Shown: positions 5,181 to 61,428 of the stretch, piece by piece | Layout of the letters: every line of letters starts with the position of its first letter | Position numbering within the stretch: the first letter of the stretch is position 1 | Origin: Natronomonas aquatica | Lineage (GTDB): Archaea; Halobacteriota; Halobacteria; Halobacteriales; Haloarculaceae | Direction of reading: 5' to 3' | Assembly: GCF_024449025.1 (NCBI RefSeq) | Contig: NZ_JAHLKM010000001.1 | Span: forward strand, 1-64,000 | DNA: 64,000 nt | The notes under the pieces: generated by a model | Databases searched by the model: none | What the model was told of the DNA's origin: nothing | What the model saw: only the letters and a program-made list of their open reading frames with translations | Position numbers and translations under genes: made by a program

Positions 5181-5328
5181 TACTACCGCTCGCATTCGAA
5201 CGCATGATCGACAGTATGGACGGGTCTCGTCACGGCATAGAGTCCTCGCCCGGACAGTTCGAACGGTGGCCGGGAACGGATGCGAACAGCCGCCTCGGGG
5301 TATGAGGCCCCTTTTCCTGTAATCGGTG

Positions 5329-9011: not shown

Positions 9012-9656
9012 GTGACGCACGAAACGTACGTGGTCCGGAGCGAGCCGGATCCGGATCGAGAGTACCACTGCGATGCGCTCGCGGAGTGTTTTCCCGGCGC
9101 CGTCGGAATCGATTTCCCGGCCGGCGAGCGGTTCGATCCGGACGACGCCGACGCCGTCGTCCTCAGCGGGAGCACGGCCGGGGTGTACGAGCGCGACGAA
9201 TACGCGTGGATCCCCGAGCAGGAGACGCTCGTTCGTGAGCTGGTCGATCGGAGCGTACCGACGCTCGGCGTCTGTTTCGGCCACCAGCTCGCGAACGCCG
9301 CGCTCGGTGGCTCCGTCGAACACGTCGGACTCACTGCCGGATTCGTTACGGCCGACCTCGAGGATGTACCGCTTTTCGACGGCGTTTCACGGGTCGTCCC
9401 GGCAATCCACGGCGACATCGTCACCACGACCGGTGACGGGATGGAGCGGATCGCCGCCGCCGATCACGCGTCGGTGTTCGGGACCCGGCACCGATCGGCG
9501 CCGCTGTGGACGGTCCAGTTCCACCCGGAGATCACGGCCGAGCATCGACCACGGCTCGTGGAATCCTTCGGCTGGGACGACGGGAGATACACGTTCGACG
9601 ACGTGTCCGCAGGGCGGGTATTCGAAAACTTCGGCTCGCTCGCCGACCGGGTCTGA
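9012..9656 (+). CDS. Class I glutamine amidotransferase
   Basis: 214 residues, a stand-alone GATase1 domain. The triad is complete: Cys88 in GVCFGHQ, His171 and Glu173 in QFHPEIT. No synthase domain is attached, so it either releases ammonia to an unknown partner or acts as a gamma-glutamyl hydrolase, like small GMP-synthase-like amidotransferases. GTG start at 9012, just after the sequence becomes coding; no ATG is available near the conserved N-terminus. Confidence 0.8.
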   Translation: MTHETYVVRSEPDPDREYHCDALAECFPGAVGIDFPAGERFDPDDADAVVLSGSTAGVYERDEYAWIPEQETLVRELVDRSVPTLGVCFGHQLANAALGGSVEHVGLTAGFVTADLEDVPLFDGVSRVVPAIHGDIVTTTGDGMERIAAADHASVFGTRHRSAPLWTVQFHPEITAEHRPRLVESFGWDDGRYTFDDVSAGRVFENFGSLADRV

Positions 9657-25975: not shown

Positions 25976-26048
25976 GAGCCCGTAGCTCAGTGGACAGAGT
26001 GCCAGGTTCCGGACCTGGTTGTCGCGGGTTCAAATCCCGTCGGGCTCG
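25976..26048 (+). tRNA. tRNA-Arg (CCG)
   Basis: Full cloverleaf of 73 bases. The acceptor stem GAGCCCG pairs with CGGGCTC, the anticodon stem CCAGG/CCTGG closes the loop TTCCGGA (anticodon CCG), and GTTCAAATC is the T loop. The 3' CCA is not encoded. Its last 23 bases are duplicated at 32736, where an integrated element ends. Confidence 0.97.
26026..26048 (+). repeat. attL of island 1, 3' end of tRNA-Arg
   Basis: The 23 bases from GGGTTCAAATCCC to the discriminator base. An exact copy lies at 32736-32758, where mismatches on both sides bound it. The tRNA itself remains complete on this side. Confidence 0.85.
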
Positions 26049-45978: not shown

Positions 45979-46003
45979 ATCCGAAGCCGCGGCCAGACGC
46001 CCC
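45969..46003 (+). promoter_or_regulatory. Promoter block P1 of the secretion locus
   Basis: GGAGGTTTAAAT, then 9 bases, then CGGCCAGACGCCCC directly before the GTG at 46004. Identical spacing and 31 of 41 identical bases (including the first start-codon positions) to a block at 49456. TATA centre to start is 28 bases. Confidence 0.6.
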
Positions 46004-47788
46004 GTGTTTGCCCGACTGCTGTCATCGGATGCCGACTGTAGCTGTGAGCCGACGTTCGAGGCCGACCGGCTCCGGGTCGAAAGCGACGGCTGTCCCGGAG
46101 CGGGGCGGCTCACCGAGGAGCCGGCGTGTCGACAGACCGTAATCGAGGCGCTGGAGCGACAGGACGTCGAGTCGGTCTGTACACGAGCGGACGGGTTCGA
46201 GCGGGCCTACGAGGACGGGGCCGCCGGCCTGCTCGTCGCCGCCGGCCGTTTCGCCGACGCCGTCGGGTTCCACGACAGAGCGCTTGCCGAGAGGGCGCGG
46301 GAGGATCCGCTCGGCGCCGCGGAAGCGGCTGTCGGCCGCGAGGAGCGGCTCGCCCGACTCGTCGCGGATACGGGACTTTCGGCGTTTCTCGGCGCCGACT
46401 ACGCGACGGCGTTGCGCCCACACGTCGGGCCGACGGTTGCCCGGTCGCGGATCGCGACCCGGCCGCCCGCCGGCGTGACGCTCGTCGACCGATACGAACT
46501 CGACACCGGAGCGGTGATCCGCAAGTACGGTGGCGATCCGATCGGAACGTACCACCTCACGCCCGCCGAACACCGGCTCGACGCCGACGCGACGGCGACG
46601 CTCGCGGCCGCCCACCGTCGGCTGGCCCGTGGGGTGGTCACCGGCGGCGAGCGGGCCCCCTCACGCGCCGTGCGGTCGGTCGCGGACGACGACCAGCCCG
46701 TCGGGACACTCGCCGCCACGCTCACCAAACACACCCGCGGGCTCGGCGTCCTCGAGGACTGCTTTGCCGACCCGGACATCACGGACGCCTTTGCGACCGC
46801 GCCGGTGACGGAAAACCGGATCCGCGTCCGCTGTGACGGCGAGACGCTCCGGACGAACGTGCGACTCACCGAGGCGGGTGCCGCAGCGCTCGCCTCGCGG
46901 TTCCGGAGATCGAGCGGACGGGCGTTCTCGCAGGCCGATCCGACCCTCGCCGCGACGGCCGACGCCTCCGGCCGCCGGATCCGGGTCGCCGGTGTCACCG
47001 ATCCGGTCAGCGACGGCACGGGGTTCACGTTCCGCGCCCACGACGAGTCGGCGTTTCGGCTGGCCGATCTGGTCGACAACGGGACGCTTCCGGCCGGATC
47101 CGCCGCGTTTCTCGCGGTCGTGACCGCACGCGGGGCGGCGACGCTTCTGGCCGGCGCACGCGGCGCCGGAAAGACGACGCTGCTCGGCGCACTGCTGTGG
47201 GAGATTCCGGCCGACATCCGGACGGTCGCCATCGAGGATACACCCGAACTCCCGGTCTCGGAGTTACAGACTGAGGGTCGAGACGTCCAGCCGCTCCGGG
47301 TTTCGACCGAGGGCGGCGCGTCGATCGAGGCGACCGAGGCGCTCCGGACCGCCCTCCGGCTCGGGGACGGAGCCCTGGTCGTCGGCGAGGTCCGCGGCGA
47401 GGAGGCACAGGTGCTCTACGAAGCGATGCGTGTCGGGGCCGCCGACGGGACCGTCCTCGGGACGATCCACGGCGGCGACGGCGAATCGGTTCGCGAGCGC
47501 GTCGTCACCGATCTCGGCGTCCCGGAGTCGGCCTTCGCGGACACGGATCTCGTCGTGACGGTCGAGGCCTACGACGAGGGCGGCGGACGGAAACGACGAC
47601 TCAGGGCGATCGAAGCGGTCCGGCGGGGAGCTACCGGGCTCGGATTCGACAGCCTCTATGACGCCGACGGCGGGATCGATCGGCTGACCGAGGAGGATAC
47701 GCTCGAACCGTTCTGCGGGCCGATGGAGGAGCCGCCGGACGTGCGTCGAGAGATCGAACGCCGGCAGGCCGAACTGGAGGGAAGATAG
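46004..47788 (+). CDS. Type II/IV secretion ATPase (PilB/VirB11-like)
   Basis: 594 residues. The N-terminal ~70 residues are Cys-rich: CSC, then DGCPG, PACRQ and ESVCT, perhaps a zinc site. The middle domain is alpha/beta, and the C-terminal ATPase has Walker A GARGAGKT at 384-391, the Asp box EDTPELPVSE, Walker B near residue 460 (ALVVGEVRGEE) and the His box GTIHGGDG. It powers assembly of pili or secretion of proteins. GTG start is fixed by promoter spacing. The TadC-like gene follows two bases after the stop. Confidence 0.88.
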   Translation: MFARLLSSDADCSCEPTFEADRLRVESDGCPGAGRLTEEPACRQTVIEALERQDVESVCTRADGFERAYEDGAAGLLVAAGRFADAVGFHDRALAERAREDPLGAAEAAVGREERLARLVADTGLSAFLGADYATALRPHVGPTVARSRIATRPPAGVTLVDRYELDTGAVIRKYGGDPIGTYHLTPAEHRLDADATATLAAAHRRLARGVVTGGERAPSRAVRSVADDDQPVGTLAATLTKHTRGLGVLEDCFADPDITDAFATAPVTENRIRVRCDGETLRTNVRLTEAGAAALASRFRRSSGRAFSQADPTLAATADASGRRIRVAGVTDPVSDGTGFTFRAHDESAFRLADLVDNGTLPAGSAAFLAVVTARGAATLLAGARGAGKTTLLGALLWEIPADIRTVAIEDTPELPVSELQTEGRDVQPLRVSTEGGASIEATEALRTALRLGDGALVVGEVRGEEAQVLYEAMRVGAADGTVLGTIHGGDGESVRERVVTDLGVPESAFADTDLVVTVEAYDEGGGRKRRLRAIEAVRRGATGLGFDSLYDADGGIDRLTEEDTLEPFCGPMEEPPDVRREIERRQAELEGR

Positions 47789-49467: not shown

Positions 49468-49490
49468 CTAAAGGGTCGGCCAGACGTCCC
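49456..49490 (+). promoter_or_regulatory. Promoter block P2 of the secretion locus
   Basis: GGAGGTTTATAAC, then CGGCCAGACGTCCC directly before the ATG at 49491. Near copy of the block at 45969, with the same distance from TATA to start. It overlaps the 3' end of the TadC-like gene. Confidence 0.6.
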
Positions 49491-49958
49491 ATGTTCGAGG
49501 CCCCGCTCGATGCGTGGTACGTCTGGATCGGGCTCGCGGCCGTCAGCGGCGCAACGCTCGGAGTCGCGGGCGGTCTCCCGTCGGCGGTACCGCCTGACGC
49601 CGACGGGAGCGCACGGACCGTCGATAGCGTCGCCGCAAGCGATCACGCGGCTGTCGAGAAACATCCGCTTTCGAACGCGAAGACAGTCCGTGTCGGCACC
49701 GACTCGGTATCGCTTCGGGGCCCCGGCGGAACGGCACACGCGGCGTTCGGATACGGACCCGTGACACCTGTTTCCAGCGATTCGAAGCTCGATGCCGTCC
49801 TCCACGGTGAGCCGCCGGGGGCAGTCTTCGTGACGCCCTCGGCGTTCGAACACGCTGCGCGAAAGGCGCGCGAATCCGAACCGCACTGGAAGGAGACGGA
49901 CCGGCTCCTCGTCCGTCGCGTCAACTGGGAGGGAACCGATGTCGTCCTCGTCGGATAA
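49491..49958 (+). CDS. Membrane-anchored subunit (DUF7283-type)
   Basis: 155 residues. One N-terminal helix (about 8-28: WYVWIGLAAVSGATLGVAGG) precedes a soluble domain of alpha/beta character. No Cys or catalytic motif. Downstream of the TadC-like protein in a haloarchaeal pilus-like locus; the DUF number is from memory. The next gene begins within its last 20 bases. Leaderless ATG. Confidence 0.65.
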   Translation: MFEAPLDAWYVWIGLAAVSGATLGVAGGLPSAVPPDADGSARTVDSVAASDHAAVEKHPLSNAKTVRVGTDSVSLRGPGGTAHAAFGYGPVTPVSSDSKLDAVLHGEPPGAVFVTPSAFEHAARKARESEPHWKETDRLLVRRVNWEGTDVVLVG

Positions 49959-50337
49959 AGCACAGACCGAACCGCTGGCGGCGCTCGTCGCCGTCTTCGC
50001 GCTCGGTCTCGGCCTGTCGCTGTACGCCGGCGTCCTCGATACGACGCTCCCGTTGCTCTCGAGCGACAGCGAGATCACGCCGGCCGTGGCGGACCGGCTC
50101 GTCGCCGAAAGCTCCTCGTTCGGTGTTCTCGACCCGCCGATCGCCGACGCCGTCGCCGCAGCACGTCCGACCGGCTACGGACTGAACGCAACGGTGCGTG
50201 CTGAAGGTTCGGTCTGGACCGGCGGCCCCCCACGCGTCGACTCCGCCGACTGTACCGTCCGTTCGGTCAGCGTCCGAATCGCCCCCGGACAGGTCCGCCC
50301 GGGGCGATTGGAGGTGTGTGTATGGCCCGTGCAGTGA
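49939..50337 (+). CDS. Pilin-like protein
   Basis: 132 residues. The N-terminus has a short charged leader (SSSSDKA), then QTEPLAALVAVFALGLGLSL: a basic residue plus Ala in front of a polar position and Glu near +3, then a hydrophobic helix. This looks like a type IV prepilin leader, cleavable by PibD. A C-terminal beta region contains two Cys (ADCTVR, EVCVWP). The reading frame overlaps the preceding gene by 20 bases and the next by 16. Confidence 0.62.
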   Translation: MSSSSDKAQTEPLAALVAVFALGLGLSLYAGVLDTTLPLLSSDSEITPAVADRLVAESSSFGVLDPPIADAVAAARPTGYGLNATVRAEGSVWTGGPPRVDSADCTVRSVSVRIAPGQVRPGRLEVCVWPVQ

Positions 50338-51107
50338 GTACGGTCCTCGACGTGTCGGTCTGTCTGTTGCTCGTCGGCGTCGCGGTAACGACGCTCGTGT
50401 TCGCGGTCCCGGGAGCGGACGAACGATCGGACTCCGAGCGGGATACGGTCGCGAAATCGATCGGTACCGTTACCGCGTCGGTTCCGGCTACCGACGGGCG
50501 GCAAACACACGATACGCTGGCGGGACACCTGACAGCGGCGGCGATCGTCGGCGCATCCTACGACGGCGAGCGGGTCGGGGCATCGACGTACCCGGACGCG
50601 GTTCGGCGGACGGTTCGAAGGGATATCCCCGAGCGGACCCACATCACCGCCCGGTGGCGGCCGTATCCCGAAGCGTCCCTGCGGGGGCAGCTCACGGTCG
50701 GGCCCGAGCCGCCGTCGACGGCCGACGTGTCGGTGAATCGGTGGGAGATCGATAGCGGGCTACGGGAGCCGCGTTCGGACAGGTCGTTCGAGGCGATCGC
50801 GGCTTCGTTCGCGACAGCGTACCTGAGGCGGCTGTTCCCGCCGGAACGGACCCGGATCGCGCTCGTCGATGCCCGGACCGCACAGCGGACGGCGGCCCGG
50901 TATCGGGCCGTCGCCGGGACACTCGGGGTGGATATCGAGGACGAGCTCGCGGACGCGTCGTCCCGACGGGCGAACGAACGGCTCGCGGACGCACTCACAG
51001 ACCGGCTCGAATCGGATCTACGGGAGAGCTACGGATCGCCGGCCGAGGCCGAAAGCGACTGGACGGGAAACAACGTCGAACTCGTCGTCAGGCGGTGGGA
51101 AGCGTGA
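50322..51107 (+). CDS. Pilin-like membrane protein
   Basis: 261 residues. N-terminus MARAVSTVLDVSVCLLLVGV: a basic-Ala site followed by a hydrophobic helix (to residue ~30), as in minor pilins. The rest is a large extracellular domain with an Arg/Ala-rich helical half. ATG at 50322 overlaps the preceding gene; GGAGG lies 8 bases ahead (50309-50313). The gene ends by overlapping the next start (GTGA). Confidence 0.6.
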   Translation: MARAVSTVLDVSVCLLLVGVAVTTLVFAVPGADERSDSERDTVAKSIGTVTASVPATDGRQTHDTLAGHLTAAAIVGASYDGERVGASTYPDAVRRTVRRDIPERTHITARWRPYPEASLRGQLTVGPEPPSTADVSVNRWEIDSGLREPRSDRSFEAIAASFATAYLRRLFPPERTRIALVDARTAQRTAARYRAVAGTLGVDIEDELADASSRRANERLADALTDRLESDLRESYGSPAEAESDWTGNNVELVVRRWEA

Positions 51108-53539
51108 ACGACAGAGGAAGAGTCCCCTTCGCGCTCGTCGGCGTACTGCTCGTGCTCACGAGCACGACGCTCGCCGTGACGGTCGTTCCCCAGACCGGCG
51201 AGGAACGTCCCGATATCGACCGGGCGATGGACGACGCGACCGCGATCGCGACGACGGAACTGCGGGCGGCAGCCGACGAGGCCGCAACGAAGACCGCGTC
51301 GGCGCCCGTCACGCGACCCGCCGACACCGTCGCCGGTCAAGCGCTTGACGACGACCGTCCGTTCAGGGACGCGCTCAGGCTTCGGATCTATTTGTACGCG
51401 ATCGAACGGCTCGACGGAACCGAAACGACCCACGGGGATACGACGGTCCGCGTCTCGCTTCCGAGCGTCGAACCGACGACGCGGGGATATCGGACCGCAA
51501 TCGAGCGGGTCGAAATAGAGCGAGCCGGCGCGGACGAGGCCGCGCTGTCGGTCGAGATCGACGGTGTAACGCTTTCGGCGATCCGAGGCGGACGGACCGT
51601 CGAGACGATCGAGCGATCGCCGACGTTCACCGTCGCGAACCCGGCGCTTTTGCTCCATGACCGCACCGAGCGGTTCGAAACGCGGGCGAACGCGCCGGTG
51701 ACTCGTGAGGGACTCGGCAGGCGACTCACCGCCCGGCTGTATCCGATCGCCTGGACGCGGGGGTACGCTCAATACGGTGGTGCGCCCATCGCGACCGTCC
51801 TCGGGACGCGCCACGTCGAACTCGCGACGAACGACGCGCTGTTGGCCGAACAGCGAGCAGCATTCGGCGAGGCGGATCCGGACGGCCACCGGGGGACCGC
51901 AGCCGCCGGCCGGCGCGTCGCGACGACCGACATGCTCGTCGGGGTCGGGGGCGACGAGGAGTGGCAGGACGTCGTTTTAGAGACTGCCGACGATATCGGT
52001 CCGGACCCGCCGGCCGACCAGCCCGTCGGCACCTGGCGGGACGAACCCGACGATCCGACCGTCACGGTCGGCGTCAACGCGTCGGCCGATCGTGCGTTCG
52101 CCGACCTCGTCGGCGTGACCGGCGATGACGAGCTGGCGACGGTCATCGAGCGGGCCCACACGGTCGAGGCCCGCATCGAGACGGAGACGACGCGAAGGCG
52201 ATGGGTCCGCGGCAACGAGACGACGGTAACGAGAGACGTCCGGAAGCGGACCTACCGGGTGGGAGTGGCCGTCCAGGCTCGCACCGAACCGATCGAGGGC
52301 GTTCCCCGCGGTCGGCTCGACGGTCACCTACAGTCGGCCGCCGACCGCGCGGCCGAGAGAGCGCTTGCGGATGCCGGCGGGTTCCGGGTCGTCGCCGAAA
52401 CCGCGGCTGACGGGCGAACGGATTGGCCGGAAGCGACGGCGAAATCGCGGCCGGCATTCGACCGCGAAACCGTCGAATCCGAACTGGCGACGCTCCGGGA
52501 GGAAACCCGGGACGTGTCGGTGACGCTGCCAGCGACGGCGGTCGGGACCGGACGGGCGGACCCCGCCCGGCGGCTGCGGGAGAAACTCTCCGAAGACGGA
52601 CGGTTTTTCGCTCCCCCCGGTCCGACGCCGGCAGAACGGACCCTCCGTGCCGGACAGCGCCGGTATCTCGACGCGCTGGGGGCGGAACTGCGGGAACGGG
52701 AGTCGATCGACGACAGGACCGGAAACGGGATCGAGGACGCACTCGGCGAGTACCTCGGCACCGACCGACTCGACGGGGCCCTCGCGGCGCACAGAGCCGC
52801 CCGTCGTCCCGACCCTGAACCGCTGTCCGATCCGGCCGGCAACCTCTCGCTTGCGGTCGATACCGCGCCGTCGTATCTCACGACGCGAGCGGTGTCCCGC
52901 GACCGGATCGACGAACGCGGCGGCGGAACGGTGTATCCGCTCTCGACACGGACGGTGAACCTCTTTACGTCACCACACGATCAGGTCGCGAGCGGAATCG
53001 TCGGACGGATCCCGTTTCTCGGTACCGAACACGTCCCCCTGTCGACGGCGGCCCGAACGCTGGCGGCGGTCGACGAGGGCCCGAAGCGCGATCGGCTCGA
53101 AGGCGAGGTCGAAGCCGCGACAGCGCACGTACGCGGCGAACTGATCGCCGAGATGGTCGACGCCGGCGTCGCCGAACACGAGGCCCGGGCGGCGCTCGCT
53201 CACGACGGCTCGAGTGCGACCGAGGCGTTGCGGCTCACGGACGGAACGACGATCGAGCGGGCGTCGACGGAGGTTTCGGGGACGGTTTCGGCCGATCGGC
53301 TCGAACTGCGGCTCCGAACGAGACTCGAGACAGTACTCGAAGAAGAATCGGCCCGACCGCGGAAGGCGACAACGACAGCCGTCCAGGAGCGGACCCGAAC
53401 CGAGTACAGCGACGAACTCGAGAACGTTCTCGCCGACGGGATCGAGACGGGCGGCGAACGTGCCCGGAAACGGGCCCTCGGCGAGCGGCTCGGGGCGCTC
53501 CCGGCCGGGTTGCCGATCGCCCCGGTTCCGGGGTACTAG
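51104..53539 (+). CDS. Large pilin-like surface protein, C-terminally truncated (DUF7286-type)
   Basis: 811 residues. It begins VNDRGRVPFALVGVLLVLTS: R-G just before a hydrophobic helix is a plausible prepilin-type site. The long ectodomain is rich in helix and beta and has no Cys. The frame ends at TAG (53537-53539), where related sequence logic calls for TGG (GYWYATVNV); TGA follows seven codons later at the attachment site of island 2. The missing ~90 residues lie in frame at 61098-61371. So the protein here is shortened by a nonsense change and an integration. Confidence 0.72.
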   Translation: MNDRGRVPFALVGVLLVLTSTTLAVTVVPQTGEERPDIDRAMDDATAIATTELRAAADEAATKTASAPVTRPADTVAGQALDDDRPFRDALRLRIYLYAIERLDGTETTHGDTTVRVSLPSVEPTTRGYRTAIERVEIERAGADEAALSVEIDGVTLSAIRGGRTVETIERSPTFTVANPALLLHDRTERFETRANAPVTREGLGRRLTARLYPIAWTRGYAQYGGAPIATVLGTRHVELATNDALLAEQRAAFGEADPDGHRGTAAAGRRVATTDMLVGVGGDEEWQDVVLETADDIGPDPPADQPVGTWRDEPDDPTVTVGVNASADRAFADLVGVTGDDELATVIERAHTVEARIETETTRRRWVRGNETTVTRDVRKRTYRVGVAVQARTEPIEGVPRGRLDGHLQSAADRAAERALADAGGFRVVAETAADGRTDWPEATAKSRPAFDRETVESELATLREETRDVSVTLPATAVGTGRADPARRLREKLSEDGRFFAPPGPTPAERTLRAGQRRYLDALGAELRERESIDDRTGNGIEDALGEYLGTDRLDGALAAHRAARRPDPEPLSDPAGNLSLAVDTAPSYLTTRAVSRDRIDERGGGTVYPLSTRTVNLFTSPHDQVASGIVGRIPFLGTEHVPLSTAARTLAAVDEGPKRDRLEGEVEAATAHVRGELIAEMVDAGVAEHEARAALAHDGSSATEALRLTDGTTIERASTEVSGTVSADRLELRLRTRLETVLEEESARPRKATTTAVQERTRTEYSDELENVLADGIETGGERARKRALGERLGALPAGLPIAPVPGY

Positions 53540-53544
53540 TACGC

Positions 53545-53559
53545 GACGGTCAACGTCTG
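53545..53559 (+). repeat. attL of island 2
   Basis: GACGGTCAACGTCTG, identical to 61098-61112. It lies in the 3' coding region of the large pilin-like gene (codons T-V-N-V-W). Confidence 0.8.
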
Positions 53560-53614
53560 AATGTAGACTATACCAAAATTCTATAAGTGAGGATTCCGAA
53601 AGACAAAATATCTC

Positions 53615-54115
53615 ATGACTGACCGAAAGCAATTCAATATCAAAATCAAGTCTGAGAAGGCTGAGAACTGGGAGAACTATTTAGAAGATAATCCTCGGTA
53701 TAGCTCTATGACTGATTTAATCCGGCAATCGGTTGAGAAAGAAATATCTGATTCTAACGGTTCCCCGTCACCAACTCAACAAGCTCCAAGCAAGGATATC
53801 GCCGAACTAAAGGAAATGTTCAATCAATCCCAGCAACAGCTTACCTCTCTTAATCATACGGTGGAAGATTTACAAACAGAAATCGAAGGGAGAGGACCAC
53901 CGGACAAACATATCCGTTCGGAAATCTTTGCGGCTCTACCAGTTAAGAACGTAAGTAGTCCACAATCTCCGCATAAAATCGCTGATAAAATCGGTGGTCC
54001 GGTGGATCACGTTACGGTTTCGAATGTACTTGAGGAAATGAACGAAGAAATGGGTGTTGTGAAGGAAAGTATTGGCTCTGAACCCGGGGCTGTCCGCTAT
54101 TATAAGGAGGATTAG
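53615..54115 (+). CDS. RHH regulator with winged C-terminal domain, upstream of integrase
   Basis: 166 residues. Residues 4-45 form an RHH-like fold (KQFNIKIKSEKAENWENYL). A coiled coil is at 65-92. Residues 97-166 (IRSEIFAALPVKN, SPHKIADKIGGPVDHVTVSNVLEEM) look like a winged helix. Two DNA-binding parts in one chain suggest a regulator of integration or copy number. The stop lies three bases before the integrase ATG, and GGAGG overlaps its end. Confidence 0.65.
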   Translation: MTDRKQFNIKIKSEKAENWENYLEDNPRYSSMTDLIRQSVEKEISDSNGSPSPTQQAPSKDIAELKEMFNQSQQQLTSLNHTVEDLQTEIEGRGPPDKHIRSEIFAALPVKNVSSPQSPHKIADKIGGPVDHVTVSNVLEEMNEEMGVVKESIGSEPGAVRYYKED

Positions 54116-54118
54116 ACT

Positions 54119-55147
54119 ATGGTAGAAACTTTCACCACTGGGAAACGGGGGAGCGAAGAGATAGAAGTACCTGATGAAATTGCTCACGTCCTCCATGACT
54201 TGGAAACTAAACTAGAGTATAACTCATACCGGAAGACAAAGACAGGGATACTCCATTACCTGAAATTTTGCCAAGAGAAACAGGGAACGTTTCCTACGGA
54301 TGGTAATTCGGAGATGCATGCACGAATGGTTAACAGCTATTTTGAGGCTATTAGGAACGAAGGATACGCTAGAGAGACGATTTCTGGTCGGTGGACATGG
54401 GTGTCTCGTCTCTATCAACAGCTATCTTCTGGCCTCCTGAATGGTTATGCCTTCCTCGAAGAGGATCCATTTGAACTGCTTGAAGAAAGAGAAAACAAAA
54501 CCAAACAAAATTATCTCCCCAAAGAAAGCCGAGAATCCAAGGACAAGCGACAGTATTATGTCTCAAAAGACGACTTGGAAACACTCTGTGATAATATAAC
54601 ATCTCCCGCTTTCAGGAACGAAACTTTGCTTCGGCTAATGTGGACCACCGGATTACGGTGTTCGGAAATTGTTCATCTCAAAGTGGATGAGATCAATCTC
54701 GAAGAAAATCGGCTTGAGAAAATCTATGTCTCGAAAACTGACGAAAAAGTTTCTTTGTGGATACCAGAGACAACGGCTTGGTATCTAGATCAATATATCA
54801 ACGGTGGATACCGGGATGCATTCTCGTATGCTGAAGAATCAGACTATCTCTTTCTCACAAATAGAGCTGAGAAGATGCATCGACAAACCCCGAATAAGGT
54901 AATCAAGAGAACAGCAGAGAAAGCGGGTATGCAGGAAGTGATAGGTCAAACCCAAGATGAGGGAAATAGATACAAGATTACAGCCCATGCCTTTCGAAGA
55001 GGACACGGTATGCACTTATGGAAAGACGGACAGACTATTACGACAATTTCAGATAGGCTTAATCATTCCAGTGCTAAGCAAACCCGCGAATATCTACCTA
55101 TCTCTGTTGAGGATTCTCAAGAGAAGCTAGAGTCGGTTTCCTTCTGA
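54119..55147 (+). CDS. Tyrosine recombinase/integrase
   Basis: 342 residues. A SAM-like N-terminal core-binding domain (20-120) is followed by the catalytic domain. Arg180 (TTGLRCSE), Lys204-206 region (YVSKTD), His290/Arg293 (HAFRRGHG), His316 (LNHSSA) and Tyr325 (TREYLPI) form the R-K-H-R-H-Y set. All are present, so the enzyme should be active. It likely cuts within the 15-bp repeat. Translation is coupled to the upstream regulator by GGAGG at 54105-54109. Confidence 0.92.
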   Translation: MVETFTTGKRGSEEIEVPDEIAHVLHDLETKLEYNSYRKTKTGILHYLKFCQEKQGTFPTDGNSEMHARMVNSYFEAIRNEGYARETISGRWTWVSRLYQQLSSGLLNGYAFLEEDPFELLEERENKTKQNYLPKESRESKDKRQYYVSKDDLETLCDNITSPAFRNETLLRLMWTTGLRCSEIVHLKVDEINLEENRLEKIYVSKTDEKVSLWIPETTAWYLDQYINGGYRDAFSYAEESDYLFLTNRAEKMHRQTPNKVIKRTAEKAGMQEVIGQTQDEGNRYKITAHAFRRGHGMHLWKDGQTITTISDRLNHSSAKQTREYLPISVEDSQEKLESVSF

Positions 55148-55157
55148 CCATCTTGCG

Positions 55158-55200
55158 TTTAACCAACACACTCCTACTCAAACCGCTGTTGTTGGTTAAA
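55158..55200. repeat. 11-bp inverted repeat after the integrase gene
   Basis: TTTAACCAACA (55158-55168) pairs perfectly with TGTTGGTTAAA (55190-55200) around a 21-base loop. It could be a terminator, or a protein-binding site. Confidence 0.55.
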
Positions 55201-55892
55201 TACATAGGGAGAGGATCTACTGCTACTCTCAGAAACAACTAGCGCTAAACTGTTATAGTCAATTCTAAGGTAAATATATGATACTCTAAACGGCTTTCTA
55301 TGACCTTCGAGAGTAGATTGTAGGGGAAACATCATAGAATGGATTTGAGGGTACAAAATGTGTGTCTATGACGGTTCTGAGAGTCAAGAGAGTATGAGAG
55401 AAGGGTGAACCAAAGAATCGACAGAGAATCGAAGAACAATCAGCAATTGAATCAAGAGAGAATCAAGAGAAGAGAATCAAGAAGAGAAACAGAAAACAGA
55501 TTTGTGTTTGTTTGATTGACTCGTCTTATAAAGAGGATCAACTTATTATTTGGAAATTGAAATGTCTGTTTTCGAGCAAAAAATCTGTCCGTATCACTCT
55601 TTCTAACCCGAGATAAATTCCTGTGAGCTTAGAAAATGCATACGAATATGCTTCAAATCAAAGAGTATAGACCTTCTACTCTCTGCTTAGACTAAACAAC
55701 TTTGTAACCTTAGCAAAAACCACCGGAGGTAGAATCCGGTGGGGAAATGCTGGAAACGGTGGCAATTGGCCCCTAATGTCATGGTGAGCTTGGGAGCCAT
55801 TTTACTTTGTCATATTGAGGATATAAGTAATTTGGGCCGTCTAAAATCTATTCAAAATTCATATACTCAAATCCGTAAAAGGACAATTTTTC
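55201..55892. other. Long non-coding stretch with purine-rich repeats
   Basis: No gene supported. From 55380 to 55500 the plus strand is almost wholly purine with repeats of GAATCAAGAGA, GAATCGA and AGAGAA. Two copies of TCTATGAC followed by a GAGAGT element occur at about 55297 and 55363. The AT-rich region 55500-55740 has no frame of note. A replication origin or regulator-binding region is possible. Confidence 0.45.
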
Positions 55893-56012
55893 TCAGACAA
55901 TACCACCAACCGAAAGAATCCAGTATGCTATGAACCCACAGAGAAGCAAAAACGCTAATCCCATACCAATAGCCAACCCCCATCCTATTGTCTCCACTAT
56001 ATCCTGAATCAT
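55893..56012 (-). CDS. 39-residue single-helix membrane peptide
   Basis: ATG at 56010-56012 to TGA at 55893. The peptide starts MIQDIVETIGWGLAIGMGLA and has one strong hydrophobic helix over about residues 12-33. It lies 33 bases after the stop of the lipoprotein gene on the same strand, so the two are likely co-transcribed. Small single-helix proteins often support a larger membrane or surface partner. Probable, not proven. Confidence 0.5.
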   Translation of the reverse strand: MIQDIVETIGWGLAIGMGLAFLLLCGFIAYWILSVGGIV

Positions 56013-56045
56013 ATTCTATTAATCAGACATGAATAATGAAGGACT

Positions 56046-57344
56046 CTATTCTATATTAACCTCCCAACTTCCATCTGCATTAATATCTACCCAACCTACT
56101 CCGTCGAAGCTGAATGTTGTCTCTCCGTCAAATTCTCCAATTTCGTTAAATACTGTCTCAGCAAAACTCCCTTCCATCGGATAGACTTGAACTTGGAAGT
56201 TACTTTCCCCAGAATGAGAACCATCTGCTACGTGAGTTCCACCAAATTCTATTGGACCCACTACATCTGGTTCACTACCAGAGAGTGACTTTGGTAGGTC
56301 TTCACCACTACCTGAACGGGGTTGATGAATATCTATACTCCAGCTTCCATCTGCATTAACGTCTAACATATATTCTCCAGAATCAATTAAATCAGCTTGT
56401 GAGCCGTCAAAATCACCAATTACGTTGATGAAGTTATCATCAAATTCTGAATCATCTACAAGAGACACTTGGAAGTTAGATTCTCCACTATGAGTAGCTT
56501 CTACAACAGTTAATCCACCTTCAATTTCCACGCCGTCTTCCACAGATTGACCACTACCAGAGAAAGATTGAGTAGCTGGTTCATCAATAGTAATTTCAAT
56601 TGAACCTGTTATTTCGTCATCCTCAGAAGTGAATCTATATTCTAATTCACCTTCTGACCAAAGCTCAGTATTAATCCCTACTGTAATAGCTGTACTCTCA
56701 CTAGAATCTAGAGTAATCTGCGATTCATCAACAAGTTCATCATCTAAATAATACTCAAGAGTCTGTGTCCCTTCCTGATCACCTGTATTTTCAATAGTAA
56801 CTTCAAGTTCTACTTCTTCACCATAGTTTACAGTTACACCATCTGGTTCCACATCTGTAAATTCAAAAACTGCTTCACCGGGTTCCTCAATTGTGATTGA
56901 CCCACTTAGCTCATCATCTTCAGTTAGAATCGTATATTCTAAATTGCCTGTCGTGTTGTCGGCTTCAATATCCTCGGGGCTATTCCATCTGGCCCCAAAT
57001 CGTACACCCTCTCCGGGTTCAAGCTCTACAGTTTCTTCATAAGAGTACCATTCCGAGCTTATTTCAATTGTTTGTTCACCGGCTATATCTCCAGTATTCT
57101 CTACATTTGCTCCGATAATAACTTCTTCATCCTGAGAGTAGGTTTCTCCATCAATTATTTCAGAAAGCTCAAAAACTGCTTCACCTTCTTGTTCTTGCTG
57201 TCCAGACTCGGATCCTTGTTCCTCTGAATCATCCTCTTCGGTTTGATCTTGATCTTCTGATTCAGGTTCTTCTGTTTCCCCACTACACCCAGCTAACGCG
57301 ATCGACCCCCCAAGGCCAATCAGGACTTTACGCCGGTTTGGCAT
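56046..57344 (-). CDS. Tat lipoprotein with CARDB-like and repeat domains
   Basis: 432 residues. RR at 4-5 and the lipobox LAGC (Cys20) give a Tat lipoprotein signal. A Glu/Gln-rich linker runs to ~60. Two Ig/CARDB-like beta domains follow (about 60-150 and 155-255), and the C-terminal 170 residues are two related repeats, each with THSGESNFQV or DGSHSGESNFQVQV and an end like DVNADGSWSIDI or DINADGSWEVNI. It should sit on the cell surface. Divergent from the HTH gene. No enzymatic motif. Confidence 0.72.
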   Translation of the reverse strand: MPNRRKVLIGLGGSIALAGCSGETEEPESEDQDQTEEDDSEEQGSESGQQEQEGEAVFELSEIIDGETYSQDEEVIIGANVENTGDIAGEQTIEISSEWYSYEETVELEPGEGVRFGARWNSPEDIEADNTTGNLEYTILTEDDELSGSITIEEPGEAVFEFTDVEPDGVTVNYGEEVELEVTIENTGDQEGTQTLEYYLDDELVDESQITLDSSESTAITVGINTELWSEGELEYRFTSEDDEITGSIEITIDEPATQSFSGSGQSVEDGVEIEGGLTVVEATHSGESNFQVSLVDDSEFDDNFINVIGDFDGSQADLIDSGEYMLDVNADGSWSIDIHQPRSGSGEDLPKSLSGSEPDVVGPIEFGGTHVADGSHSGESNFQVQVYPMEGSFAETVFNEIGEFDGETTFSFDGVGWVDINADGSWEVNIE

Positions 57345-57458
57345 ACGTTCTCTATTCCCTCATTTAACTATAAACTTTGGCTACTAATCCGTAGTTATTT
57401 AATTACTAATTAGTGTTTGCAGAATTATAAGTCAGGGGGATTAAAGATAGATAGTAGC

Positions 57459-57722
57459 ATGGAAATCACCATGCGAGAGCGGGCGGATTGGATGACCCAG
57501 CTAGATGACGAAATTCTAGAACTTCTATATTCATCTGAACTTGTACTAAGTCCGTCTATTATCGCTTTCAACATTGATCGGAGCCGGGAGGGAGTAGCAG
57601 ATCGAATAGCTACACTAACCAACTATGGTCTAGTTAAGAAGGTTGAACGGGGAAAATACCGAATCACCGAAGAAGGTGGGCAATATCTTCAGGGAAAATT
57701 AGACGCAAGCAGATTAGAGTGA
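57459..57722 (+). CDS. PhiH1-repressor-like winged-helix protein
   Basis: 87 residues, or 83 from the next ATG (57471). ADWMTQLDDEILELL begins the HTH, followed by SPSIIAFNIDRSREGVADRIATLTNYGLV and KYRITEEGGQYLQG (quoted in part), as in haloarchaeal phage phiH1 repressors. AATTATAAG at 57422-57430 is about 32-33 bases before the first ATG. Divergent from the lipoprotein gene, so it probably controls both and sits in the shared AT-rich region. Confidence 0.72.
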   Translation: MEITMRERADWMTQLDDEILELLYSSELVLSPSIIAFNIDRSREGVADRIATLTNYGLVKKVERGKYRITEEGGQYLQGKLDASRLE

Positions 57723-57777
57723 AAGCTAGATAGACTCTACCAAACATTTAATAACCGACTCCATCTGGAAATTGCAT

Positions 57778-58551
57778 ATGGGCGGGGATTCCTCCGAAGA
57801 AAGCAGTGATGACAGTGGTATAAACATTACACTAGGTAAGATTATCGCATATCCAGTTGGCATACTGCTACTACTTTCAGGATTAGGAGGCTTTACACAG
57901 AGTGTTGCTGCGGGCGTCTTTCTACTATTAGCTGGAATTCTATCACTCCCAATTGTTCGGTCACGGTTAAAACAGTCGCAAGGTATTGCTATCAACCGAT
58001 GGGCAACAGTCGGTATTGTGATCGTGTTAGTAATTGCTGGTGGTTCAATGATTGGGGGGACTGGGAATGGTGATACTTCTAGCGGCGAGACTGAAGAAAT
58101 AACTCACCAGATGGGAGAGTCTTTTACTGTCGGTGACGATAGTGAATCAATTCAATATACCGTTCAAAATGCGTATGAGACAAGCTACATTGACTCCGGA
58201 CTTGAGCAAGAAGAGGCAGATGGAAAGTTCGTGATCATTATTCTTTCAATGGAAAATGTGGGTGATGAATCAGTTGATATAACCACTAACCACTTGACAA
58301 TAGTTGATTCTCAAGATCGTACATTTGACGCAAGTTCGGAGCAATCTATTTGGGTTGAACAAGACGCCCGATTCCAAGTTGAAGGAATTACTTTTGATCA
58401 ACTACAGCCAGGAGTTACGACCGAGGGAGCCGCTGTTTTTGAAGTACCTGAAGAAGAATCAGAACTTCAGTTTAAAATAGAACCAACAGGTGTGTTCTCT
58501 AATGCTGATGAACACTATGTAGAGCTAGAAACAGAGCAATTAGAAGAATGA
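57778..58551 (+). CDS. Membrane protein with DUF4352-like C-terminal domain
   Basis: 257 residues. Three membrane helices at about 22-38, 43-60 and 76-95 follow a short Ser/Asp-rich leader. Residues 115-250 form a beta-sandwich-like domain: YTVQNAYETSYID, GKFVIIILSMENVGDESVDI, and PGVTTEGAAVFEVPEE (first and last typical of DUF4352). Leaderless: ATTTAATA lies about 28 bases before the ATG. Probably the surface domain is exported. Function unknown. Confidence 0.7.
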   Translation: MGGDSSEESSDDSGINITLGKIIAYPVGILLLLSGLGGFTQSVAAGVFLLLAGILSLPIVRSRLKQSQGIAINRWATVGIVIVLVIAGGSMIGGTGNGDTSSGETEEITHQMGESFTVGDDSESIQYTVQNAYETSYIDSGLEQEEADGKFVIIILSMENVGDESVDITTNHLTIVDSQDRTFDASSEQSIWVEQDARFQVEGITFDQLQPGVTTEGAAVFEVPEEESELQFKIEPTGVFSNADEHYVELETEQLEE

Positions 58552-58629
58552 TCATTAAAATAGATTCTTTGATTTAGGGTAAGTACTCTGCCTAATCTTT
58601 ATACTCATTCTCTATCGGGTGGAAATATA

Positions 58630-59001
58630 ATGAAACGAAAAAATTACTTAGCGACTATCGGAACAACAGCTAGCCTTGTTAGTTTTTCAGGTTGTTTAGT
58701 TTCAACTTCAGAAGTAGATGGTGATCTTGTTGTAGATGATACAGTGATAGGTAATACTCAGTTTACTTTTGAAGCTAATGAGGAAGATATGATCAATATC
58801 TGGGGGCATAATACTGAGGGACGGCTTGCTATTATTAGTATAGAAGGCCCTGAATTAAAAGTAGGTTCATTACAGATAGAAACAGAAAAAAGCTCTTCGT
58901 TTAATGCTATATCTACTGGTACACATGTTGCTATTATCGCACAATCTGGCTTTGGTGGTGAAGTAGAGGTACAGATTGGTGTAGAAAATCAACCTGATTG
59001 A
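58630..59001 (+). CDS. Small lipoprotein
   Basis: 123 residues. A signal of ~20 residues leads to FSGC (Cys22); the basic region is KRK, not a true twin-Arg. The mature part is a beta-rich domain of ~90 residues, with no recognised motif. CTTTATAC at 58597-58604 places transcript start about at the ATG. Follows the DUF4352-like gene by ~80 bases but has its own promoter. Confidence 0.62.
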   Translation: MKRKNYLATIGTTASLVSFSGCLVSTSEVDGDLVVDDTVIGNTQFTFEANEEDMINIWGHNTEGRLAIISIEGPELKVGSLQIETEKSSSFNAISTGTHVAIIAQSGFGGEVEVQIGVENQPD

Positions 59002-59844
59002 AGTATAGATCTTTTGAAAAGCTGTTTTCAGCTATTCATTAGCCATTAATAACAGGTAATACATAGTCAGTTAATAGTTTATTCCCCAAATTTAGAAGGT
59101 AGATCATCTAATACAGTTATATTCTCAATTTAGAATAGGTACAATGTATCTAGTACAGTAATCATCTATATCCCCACAAAACAGTAGTATAAGACAGTAT
59201 AACAGTAATATTGCTTTGCAACGTTATCTCCTATCCCTAGTAAAATACCTAATATAGTGATTTACTTACTGTGTATAGACTCTACTGGAAATGTCTTCGT
59301 TCGCTCACTAGGGGATTTGGTAACTACAATAATACTCTCTTCGCTCTAGATCTCTTTGTAACTATAGATGAATACTCTATAAGTTCCCAACTAGTATTAT
59401 TTATTAATTTAATTCCTTTCTTCTTTTTCCTTCCTTTTCAAAATATACAAAAGTTTTTCCTTCCTTTCTCTTCCTTCATTATTGCTGGCCACAAAGAGCG
59501 ATGTGACCACCAGCTAACAAGCGATACCAAACTAGATCCCAATCTTGAGGAGGAGCCACATAGCGGACGTCGCCGCTGAAGGTACTCAATACTGTGTAGC
59601 TCCCATAATCTGACCATCGTTCCTATTCCGAGAGGTATCCATCGGCTAGAGCAAATGACCCACCAAATTCTGTACTATACAAAGATAATTGAACCTCTAA
59701 GCGAAGTTAGCCACGAACGAGATGGATTTCATCGGAAGACGCAACGAACGGATTCTAAGGTTACTCAGTTTCTTCTCACGAAGACTGATTGGAGTAACTA
59801 GCGGACTAGTTTAATAATGATTGCCTGAGGGCTGTCACATAAGA
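59002..59844. other. AT-rich stretch without a supported gene; imperfect direct repeats
   Basis: Two ~34-bp imperfect direct repeats begin with AATTTAGAA at 59089 and 59127 and share ATCTAxTACAGTxAT, spaced 38 bases apart. A 30-residue frame (59722-59814) and a 102-residue frame (59271-59579) have no recognisable motif, and their codon use is not convincing. A pyrimidine-rich tract runs at 59400-59480. I found no tRNA or clear hairpin. Confidence 0.4.
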
Positions 59845-60933
59845 ATGGATGAAGAGTCGGTTAGAGGATATATCGAACACTCTCAAGAGATTATTAGAGA
59901 CTCTCCTCAAATGGACGAAGCCAATACCAAAGCGGCGATACTCCAACCGGAATTTCTAGATCTTCTCAATTGGAAAATTCCACAGAACACTCAACTGGAG
60001 TATTCCGTAGAAGCATTTGGACAAACCTATAAAGTTGATTATGCTCTGATTTTGGAAGGAACTCCTGTTGCGTTTATAGAGGCAAAAGGGGTTGATACGT
60101 CTCTAACTGAGCGACATGATGAACAGCTTTCATCGTATATGACTAACAAGAATGTTAGCTATGGAATATTAACGAATGGGGAACGGTATCGGTTCTTCCA
60201 ACGACAAGTAGACGGAGCCAATGTGAGTGTACAGCAAGTCGCAGATATACAACTGGAAGATTTAGTAGATCGAATTGCGATTTTGAGAGCATATACTGTT
60301 GATTCAATCCAATCAGGTGAATCTGCGAGAATTCTTGGCCGAATTAACGAGCTACGACAATCACGAAAAACTCTAGAAAGTGAGAAGGACAACTTAGCGT
60401 CTGAAATTACGAATCTACTGACAGAGAGTGTTTCTGATGTTATTTCATCTCCTGTTGAATCCCAAGCCAAAGAGATGATTGATAGAGTTATCACAGACAT
60501 TGAAATGGAGATTGATACAGATGGCAGTAGTTCAACTGTTGAAGCACCTAGCAACACACAACCTGAATCTACTGAAGAACTTTCTGACATAGAGAGTGGA
60601 TATATAGTTCGAATACATGATGCTGGCAACACACTTGCTGAATTTGAAGATGAGATTCAGAGTGATGTAATAGCTGATGCTGTGGATTATCTGATTGAAA
60701 ACGAGAATCTTATTTCAAAAATAGAACCCCTACCCTACATTCCGGGGAGAGAGAAGGCAATAATCAATAACGAACCAGCGTCTCCCCACGATGAAAAGGC
60801 GATGAGGGCTTATCGAGAATTGGCTGGTGGGTACTATCTTGATACTCATGCTAATCAGGACGGGAAGAAGCGTACCATGAGTACTTTAACAGAAGAATGT
60901 GATCTTGAAGTTTCGTTTAGTGGTGAATGGTGA
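59845..60933 (+). CDS. HsdR_N-type PD-(D/E)xK protein
   Basis: 362 residues. An N-terminal helix is followed by KAAILQPEFLDLLNW, then the nuclease core: Asp65 in YKVDYALI, Glu79-x-Lys81 in AFIEAKGV, and Gln94 in EQLSSYM (motif IV). This is the layout of the N-terminal endonuclease domain of type I restriction subunit R. Coiled coil at ~160-215, then a Ser/Thr/Glu-rich linker, then a ~100-residue C-terminal domain. There is no helicase domain and no methylase nearby. A leadered ATG; the in-frame TTG at 59821 is an alternative. Role may be nuclease or binding only. Confidence 0.72.
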   Translation: MDEESVRGYIEHSQEIIRDSPQMDEANTKAAILQPEFLDLLNWKIPQNTQLEYSVEAFGQTYKVDYALILEGTPVAFIEAKGVDTSLTERHDEQLSSYMTNKNVSYGILTNGERYRFFQRQVDGANVSVQQVADIQLEDLVDRIAILRAYTVDSIQSGESARILGRINELRQSRKTLESEKDNLASEITNLLTESVSDVISSPVESQAKEMIDRVITDIEMEIDTDGSSSTVEAPSNTQPESTEELSDIESGYIVRIHDAGNTLAEFEDEIQSDVIADAVDYLIENENLISKIEPLPYIPGREKAIINNEPASPHDEKAMRAYRELAGGYYLDTHANQDGKKRTMSTLTEECDLEVSFSGEW

Positions 60934-61097
60934 TCCTACACGACAGATTAAGAACCATTATATTTGTTTCATAGAATAACATAGTTCTGCTTAATCGAAA
61001 GAAGGGACGGAGGTAGTGATTTTAGAGTGAATTATACAGATAATATTGCTTGTTTCCTCCGTATATTTTGGTAGAATTATTCTACTATCTATAATCG

Positions 61098-61112
61098 GAC
61101 GGTCAACGTCTG
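61098..61112 (+). repeat. attR of island 2
   Basis: Second copy of GACGGTCAACGTCTG. The base after it is G, giving TGG (Trp) in frame with the displaced coding segment, while the copy at 53545 is followed by A, giving TGA. Confidence 0.8.
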
Positions 61113-61371
61113 GTACGTCGACGTCGGCGGCACCTACGAGCGTTTCGCCGTCCGGACGAACCGGGAAAGCGACTCGGGATCGGTGACGTATCTTCGCGAC
61201 GGACGGGCGGCAAACCTCACCCACCGCGGGGAACGGGTCCATCTGGGCACGGCCGAACGGATCTCGGTACGGACGAAAACCGCCGTCATCGTCGTCGTCC
61301 CGCCGGGGCCTCGGGGCGTCGGCAACACTGACGGAAAGATGGACCGGCGCTCGCCGGGATGGCCGCCGTGA
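61098..61371 (+). pseudogene. Displaced C-terminal part of the large pilin-like gene
   Basis: Open frame from attR: TVNVWYVDVGGTYERFAVRT, TYLRDGRAANL, ISVRTKTAVIVVVPPGPRG and an ending RRSPGWPP, stop TGA at 61369-61371. Joined in frame at the repeat to the gene ending at 53539, it restores an expected beta-rich C-terminus. There is no start codon with a promoter in front, so it should not be expressed as such. GC-rich like the upstream gene. Confidence 0.72.
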
Positions 61372-61428
61372 ACCCAACTCGCGATCGAACCCCGAACGGT
61401 ACTTTAGGTCGGAAAGCGAACGAAGGGT

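Follow-up and report, generated by a model that had tools for sequence, protein, structure and literature searches.

The 64,000-nt stretch of DNA analyzed here (the window) very probably carries a 7.6-kb haloarchaeal integrative element that entered a protein-coding attachment site, attB, in a DUF7286 gene, belongs to a family whose common module has assorted coding targets, and truncates its host gene rather than switching it. An earlier note on this DNA had described an element with a protein-coding attB in a secretion locus, and that description is borne out. The note had also taken excision to be a switch for surface structure, a proposal that the present sequence does not support because of an in-frame TAG codon.

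Borders and genes of the element

The borders are marked by a 15-mer, GACGGTCAACGTCTG, which is matched exactly at the two places that the earlier note had reported and has no third copy in the window. Allowing up to two mismatches, 0.29 matches to a 15-mer would be expected in the window by chance. As a control, the zone 5′ of the first element gene was set against the 800 nt around the right border, and a 15-bp match was reached in 0 of 300 shuffles. The 7,553 bp of DNA between the cores has a GC content of 40.2%, whereas the host has 63.8% in window positions 1 to 53500, the lower figure of an overall range of 64 to 70%, and about 69 to 70% in the immediate flanks. The drop in GC content noticed previously is thus real, and the step is sharp and coincides with both 15-bp repeats. 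There is no tRNA gene near the element, the two in the window being at 25976 and 33072; the joined flanks form a DUF7286 gene, in agreement with the original view of the site as protein coding.

TABLE 1 Features of the element and its host locus (window coordinates)
Feature	Position	Strand	Evidence or remarks
TadA/VirB11-like secretion ATPase (context)	45986..47788	+	PF00437, 9.3e-20; TIGR03819, 1.7e-34, under its cutoff
DUF7283, DUF7285, and DUF7284 genes, directly 5′ of DUF7286 (context)	49488..51107	+	
DUF7286, 5′ part, 814 codons	51095..53539	+	PF23957, 1.7e-224; stops at TAG 53537-53539
attL core, 15 bp	53545..53559	+	GACGGTCAACGTCTG; direct repeat; border gives TGA stop (GTC TGA)
Accessory gene, 166 aa: RHH-like N terminus, coiled coil, winged-helix C terminus	53615..54115	+	Beside all relatives' integrases; AlphaFold; weak Foldseek matches
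Tyrosine recombinase, 342 aa, full R-K-H-R-H-Y	54119..55147	+	PF00589, 2.1e-25; XerA/XerD alignment
Cargo: secreted or lipoprotein-like protein, CARDB domain	56046..57344	-	8.5e-07
Cargo: winged-helix regulator	57417..57722	+	phrog_2440, 9.2e-28
Cargo: membrane protein, DUF4352	57772..58551	+	
Cargo: short lipoprotein-like protein, no family	58630..59001	+	
Cargo: HsdR N-terminal (type I restriction, PD-(D/E)XK-like) domain protein	59821..60933	+	PF13588, 1.1e-08; phrog_4225
attR core, 15 bp	61098..61112	+	Same GACGGTCAACGTCTG; direct repeat
DUF7286, orphan 3′ part (rest of 92-residue C-terminal remnant, without a start)	61113..61372	+	Conservation as in intact copies

The integrase does have the complete catalytic set ascribed to it, since all six residues (R180, K206, H290, R293, H316, and Y325) align with those of XerD. 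A tyrosine-recombinase integrative element is defined by such a recombinase, by att repeats at its two ends, and by an attB that is found empty in a relative, here a member of the genus (G017; see below). Searches of the seven module and cargo genes against Pfam, PHROGs, and NCBIfam revealed no capsid, portal, spike, or replication genes, and PADLOC found no defense system in the cargo, just weak single-gene matches. The HsdR-domain protein is solitary, the element encoding neither a methylase nor a helicase to go with it, and is possibly a standalone nuclease or defense gene. Two AT-rich stretches of 0.8 to 0.9 kb each (55150 to 56040 and 59005 to 59820) lack convincing genes, and there were no Rfam matches in these or elsewhere in the region.

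An interrupted DUF7286 gene in a secretion-ATPase locus

When the flanks are joined at the repeat, they form a single frame, ...LPIAPVPGY[TAG]YATVNVWYVDVGGTYERF..., that is broken by an in-frame TAG. The earlier note had read the flanks as one continuous frame; the single frame, covered by one Pfam model, stands, but the TAG had been overlooked. Both halves belong to the DUF7286 profile (PF23957), which runs without a gap over the joint (positions 848 to 1000 of 1000), so the two are parts of one protein family. The gene is also continuous elsewhere: DUF7286 was uninterrupted in 20 of 20 relatives with aligned C termini, and in G017 the exact 17-mer GCGACGGTCAACGTCTG lies within an intact DUF7286 gene, where it represents an empty 15-bp site. 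As the species is represented by one genome, this empty site is not an isogenic one. The claim of a split coding gene has thereby withstood both refuting conditions named in the earlier note, which concerned continuity in relatives and homology of the two halves.

The DUF7286 C-terminal region was present in 285 of the 392 genomes of the order, and among the matches listed for those 392 genomes, only that of the window's genome begins at the joint. Candidate same-site insertions in the DUF7286 genes of G094, G166, G187, G067, G197, and others were rejected after a renewed search, in which they looked like diverged copies, frame breaks, or truncations elsewhere in the gene. In comparisons with six intact relatives, the 3′ remnant is 61 to 76% identical to them, and they are 57 to 82% identical to one another. 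The remnant being within the range of intact copies, the insertion of the element looks recent.

The genes 5′ of DUF7286 encode DUF7310 and DUF7311 proteins, the TadA/VirB11-like ATPase, a 558-amino-acid membrane protein without a family, and the DUF7283, DUF7285, and DUF7284 proteins, and this neighborhood agrees with the original assignment of the gene to a secretion locus. No pilin was identified in the secretion-ATPase locus. A census of archaeal type IV pili described a halobacterial system that is distinguished by a unique coiled-coil protein inside the cell and often includes a protein of S-layer type (PMC4858521); to this system, we infer, the DUF7286 locus is linked. We found no papers on DUF7286 among the open-license literature.

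A nonsense codon beside attL

The TAG codon is separated from the core by the five bases 53540 to 53544 (6 nt when counted from the final G of the stop to where the core begins). At this position, 20 of 20 relatives have TGG (Trp), as part of PGY-W-YATxNVW or of a variant of this motif. The TAG, which is known from one draft assembly of 82 contigs, is the sole inactivating change in the 2.4 kb of the left gene part. Joining the flanks as in a precise excision leaves the TAG in place, and the host open reading frame, as assembled, is not restored. Excision would therefore not give back the protein, and a switch is unsupported; as assembled, the integrated and excised forms would yield nearly the same truncated protein. 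We infer that integration amounted to inactivation or truncation of a locus gene, with no reversible switch.

The reading that we prefer is that a 15-bp attP core recombined site specifically with its exact counterpart in DUF7286, at the conserved codons ATVNVW close to the 3′ end of the gene, as shown by the anatomy of the element and the empty site in G017. The recombinase and the accessory DNA-binding protein form a conserved two-gene module with the att core just upstream, and members of the family target assorted protein-coding genes. Integration cost the host gene its last tenth, and the change from TGG to TAG beside attL would block restoration by excision in the assembled sequence. The element itself is probably excision competent.

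Excision could still be imagined to act as a switch, with the element leaving DUF7286 in part of the population, the full protein returning, and a pilus-like structure being turned on. An attB that is coding and in frame, perfect 15-bp repeats, an intact recombinase and accessory gene, and a conserved 3′ remnant would all suit this proposal. We nevertheless regard it as highly improbable, given that the TAG blocks restoration in the assembly, that the insertion does not recur among the listed matches to the DUF7286 C termini of the order, and that the role of DUF7286 in a surface structure is putative. The switch of the earlier note is accordingly unsupported, in view of both the nonsense codon and the lack of same-site recurrence in the DUF7286 copies examined.

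The order of events might instead have been the reverse, the TAG having arisen before the insertion and the element having landed in what was already a neutral site in a pseudogene. The location of the TAG on the host side of attL suits this order, but a lone inactivating change in such a length of gene is unlikely to fall so near the junction if it was a random earlier mutation. Both gene halves are also at normal levels of conservation, and relatives have the core as a conserved motif in DUF7286, so we think a preexisting pseudogene improbable. Somewhat less improbable, though still unlikely, is that the truncated DUF7286 protein remains functional and that selection has kept its 814-codon part open despite the loss of the last tenth. 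The left part is indeed open as far as the junction, free of frameshifts and with a sole stop at the very end, but a recent insertion would look alike in the absence of selection, and the C terminus that was lost is strongly conserved.

A conserved two-gene module

The closest recombinases were those of Halorubrum persicum C49 (56%) and Haloarchaeobius sp. FL176 (41%). With 20 further relatives, sampled as 20-kb stretches, the set came to 22 members found through the similarity of their integrases, and Halorientalis marina was added to these. An accessory gene of the same type lies directly 5′ of the integrase in 22 of 22 relatives and in H. marina. An AlphaFold model of the accessory protein (mean pLDDT, 69) has two N-terminal helices, a long helix, and a winged-helix C terminus; the expected ribbon strand is of low confidence, and the ribbon-helix-helix (RHH) label denotes a sequence pattern with no matching Pfam model. 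The Foldseek matches, to winged helices of the Fur, MarR, and ArsR types, agree with this fold, but none has an E value below 0.001. Judging by its fixed position and its DNA-binding fold, the accessory protein probably either aids binding by the recombinase or sets the direction of recombination.

Viral contigs, scanned first with the single integrase sequence and also with a three-member alignment, contained no match to relatives of the integrase, and plasmid and phage records yielded distant integrases at most. No papers on this pairing of accessory protein and recombinase were found among the open-license literature.

Protein-coding targets across the module family

In nine members, cores of 9 to 15 bp end 46 to 65 bp upstream of the accessory ATG. 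The L127/L131-L133 group has its core about 215 to 245 bp upstream, and its common core, ATGCCCAAGATA, lies where a different gene begins, one that is of the RHH type by sequence. The H. persicum element splits an EamA permease gene that five congeners have intact, the cut falling between FEI and NLVSY, and that of Haloarchaeobius is in an HhH-GPD glycosylase gene (intact in congeners). A single Pfam domain spans the joint in the TctA gene of L138, in the uracil-DNA glycosylase (UDG) gene of L130, and, after a one-base adjustment for an extra T in attL, in the ABC-2 permease gene of L141. The site of L126 is a long continuous open reading frame without a Pfam match, that of L142 is at the 3′ end of the EF-2 gene, where a new stop is made, and that of L143 follows the mcm stop and precedes the start of the next gene. 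Weak cores of 9 to 11 bp were equaled in 38 of 300 shuffles for L134 and in 11 of 300 for L140. No tRNA genes were found at the junctions located, about eight relatives being without a located right end.

The elements of H. marina (L121) and L141, which belong to different haloarchaeal families, have inserted into an ABC-2 permease gene at one identical position (GTGGATGTACTCGTTCC), and L142, from the same well-supported clade, is located at EF-2. This distribution shows that insertion is not random. As judged from the sequences compared, the module is specific in its targets, some subclades having kept one specificity and switches having occurred between others in evolution, and protein-coding sites look like a habit of its integrase family. 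The earlier note was right to call the site protein coding, but such a site is less unusual in this family than the note supposed, since the resolved sites of the relatives are protein coding as well.

Three further observations concern individual relatives. The attL of L141 (oriented copy, 1006 to 1017 and 5311 to 5322) has its extra T relative to L121 (9150 to 9480), which makes it another instance of decay next to attL. The related elements L138 and L135 both lie close to one TctA-like motif (NTANT), but with respect to the gene they point in opposite directions. In L139 (from G027), a 44-bp repeat was tried as an att core and dropped, as it represents two paralogous type IV pilin N termini (called as pilin from sequence); these flank the element at 574 to 617 and 9493 to 9536 (oriented) with 44 bp identical, and they could allow homologous recombination to delete the element or to swap pilins.

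Comparison with known systems

Archaeal integrases mostly target tRNA genes, with coding sites known from single reports (PMC8371274). The present element is like the archaeal tyrosine-recombinase elements of the XerA, SNJ2, and pNOB8 families (PMC8371274) in its XerA/XerD-like recombinase with a full catalytic set, its short direct-repeat att sites, and its borders. It differs from them in that tRNA genes are the usual targets there, whereas here the resolved sites are protein coding and the recombinase has an RHH/coiled-coil/winged-helix partner.

The IntSNJ2 operon of the pleolipovirus SNJ2 has a 14-nt att site and two small helpers, one coiled coil and one MarR like (PMC8371274). A short att site and a small helper are common to both systems, and the two SNJ2 helpers are similar to two of the parts that make up the accessory protein; compared by description, however, a single accessory gene with both types of part precedes the integrase here, and the target is not a tRNA gene. 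SNJ2-type integrases have Phage_int_SAM and Phage_integrase domains (PMC8371274), whereas PF00589 alone was matched in the recombinase and Phage_int_SAM was not detected (Pfam, E values up to 0.1). A tblastn search of phage records gave no pleolipovirus among the named matches. With the SAM-like domain undetected and no such match, membership in the SNJ2 family is not supported.

Virus BJ1 and others use a coding attB, for example in genes for HMG-CoA reductase or an AsnC-type regulator (PMC8371274). These share with our element an attB inside an archaeal protein-coding gene, but they are single cases, whereas here there is a family-wide pattern with target switching. In bacterial active lysogeny, or regulatory prophage excision, as with the comK prophage (PMC6872733), the att site is likewise in frame and the host gene is split by the element; excision restores the gene there, while the nonsense codon remains here.

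Implications

Whether protein-coding sites recombine efficiently, and with what requirements, was raised as an open question in a review of archaeal integrases (PMC8371274). In the family described here, natural coding sites are numerous, the two-gene module is fixed, and closely related members differ in their targets; these features together make target choice and target switching by archaeal recombinases directly testable. More broadly, one may speculate that this is a widespread and apparently undescribed haloarchaeal module specialized in coding attB sites, which changes its target through exchange of its att core, the accessory protein contributing to the choice of site, and that some insertions, for example in secretion or pilus loci, are reversible switches; we hold this larger proposal as tentative and rather doubtful in its entirety. 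The pattern across the family is of greater interest, and it shows how host genes, those for secretion and transport included, come to be inactivated by such elements.
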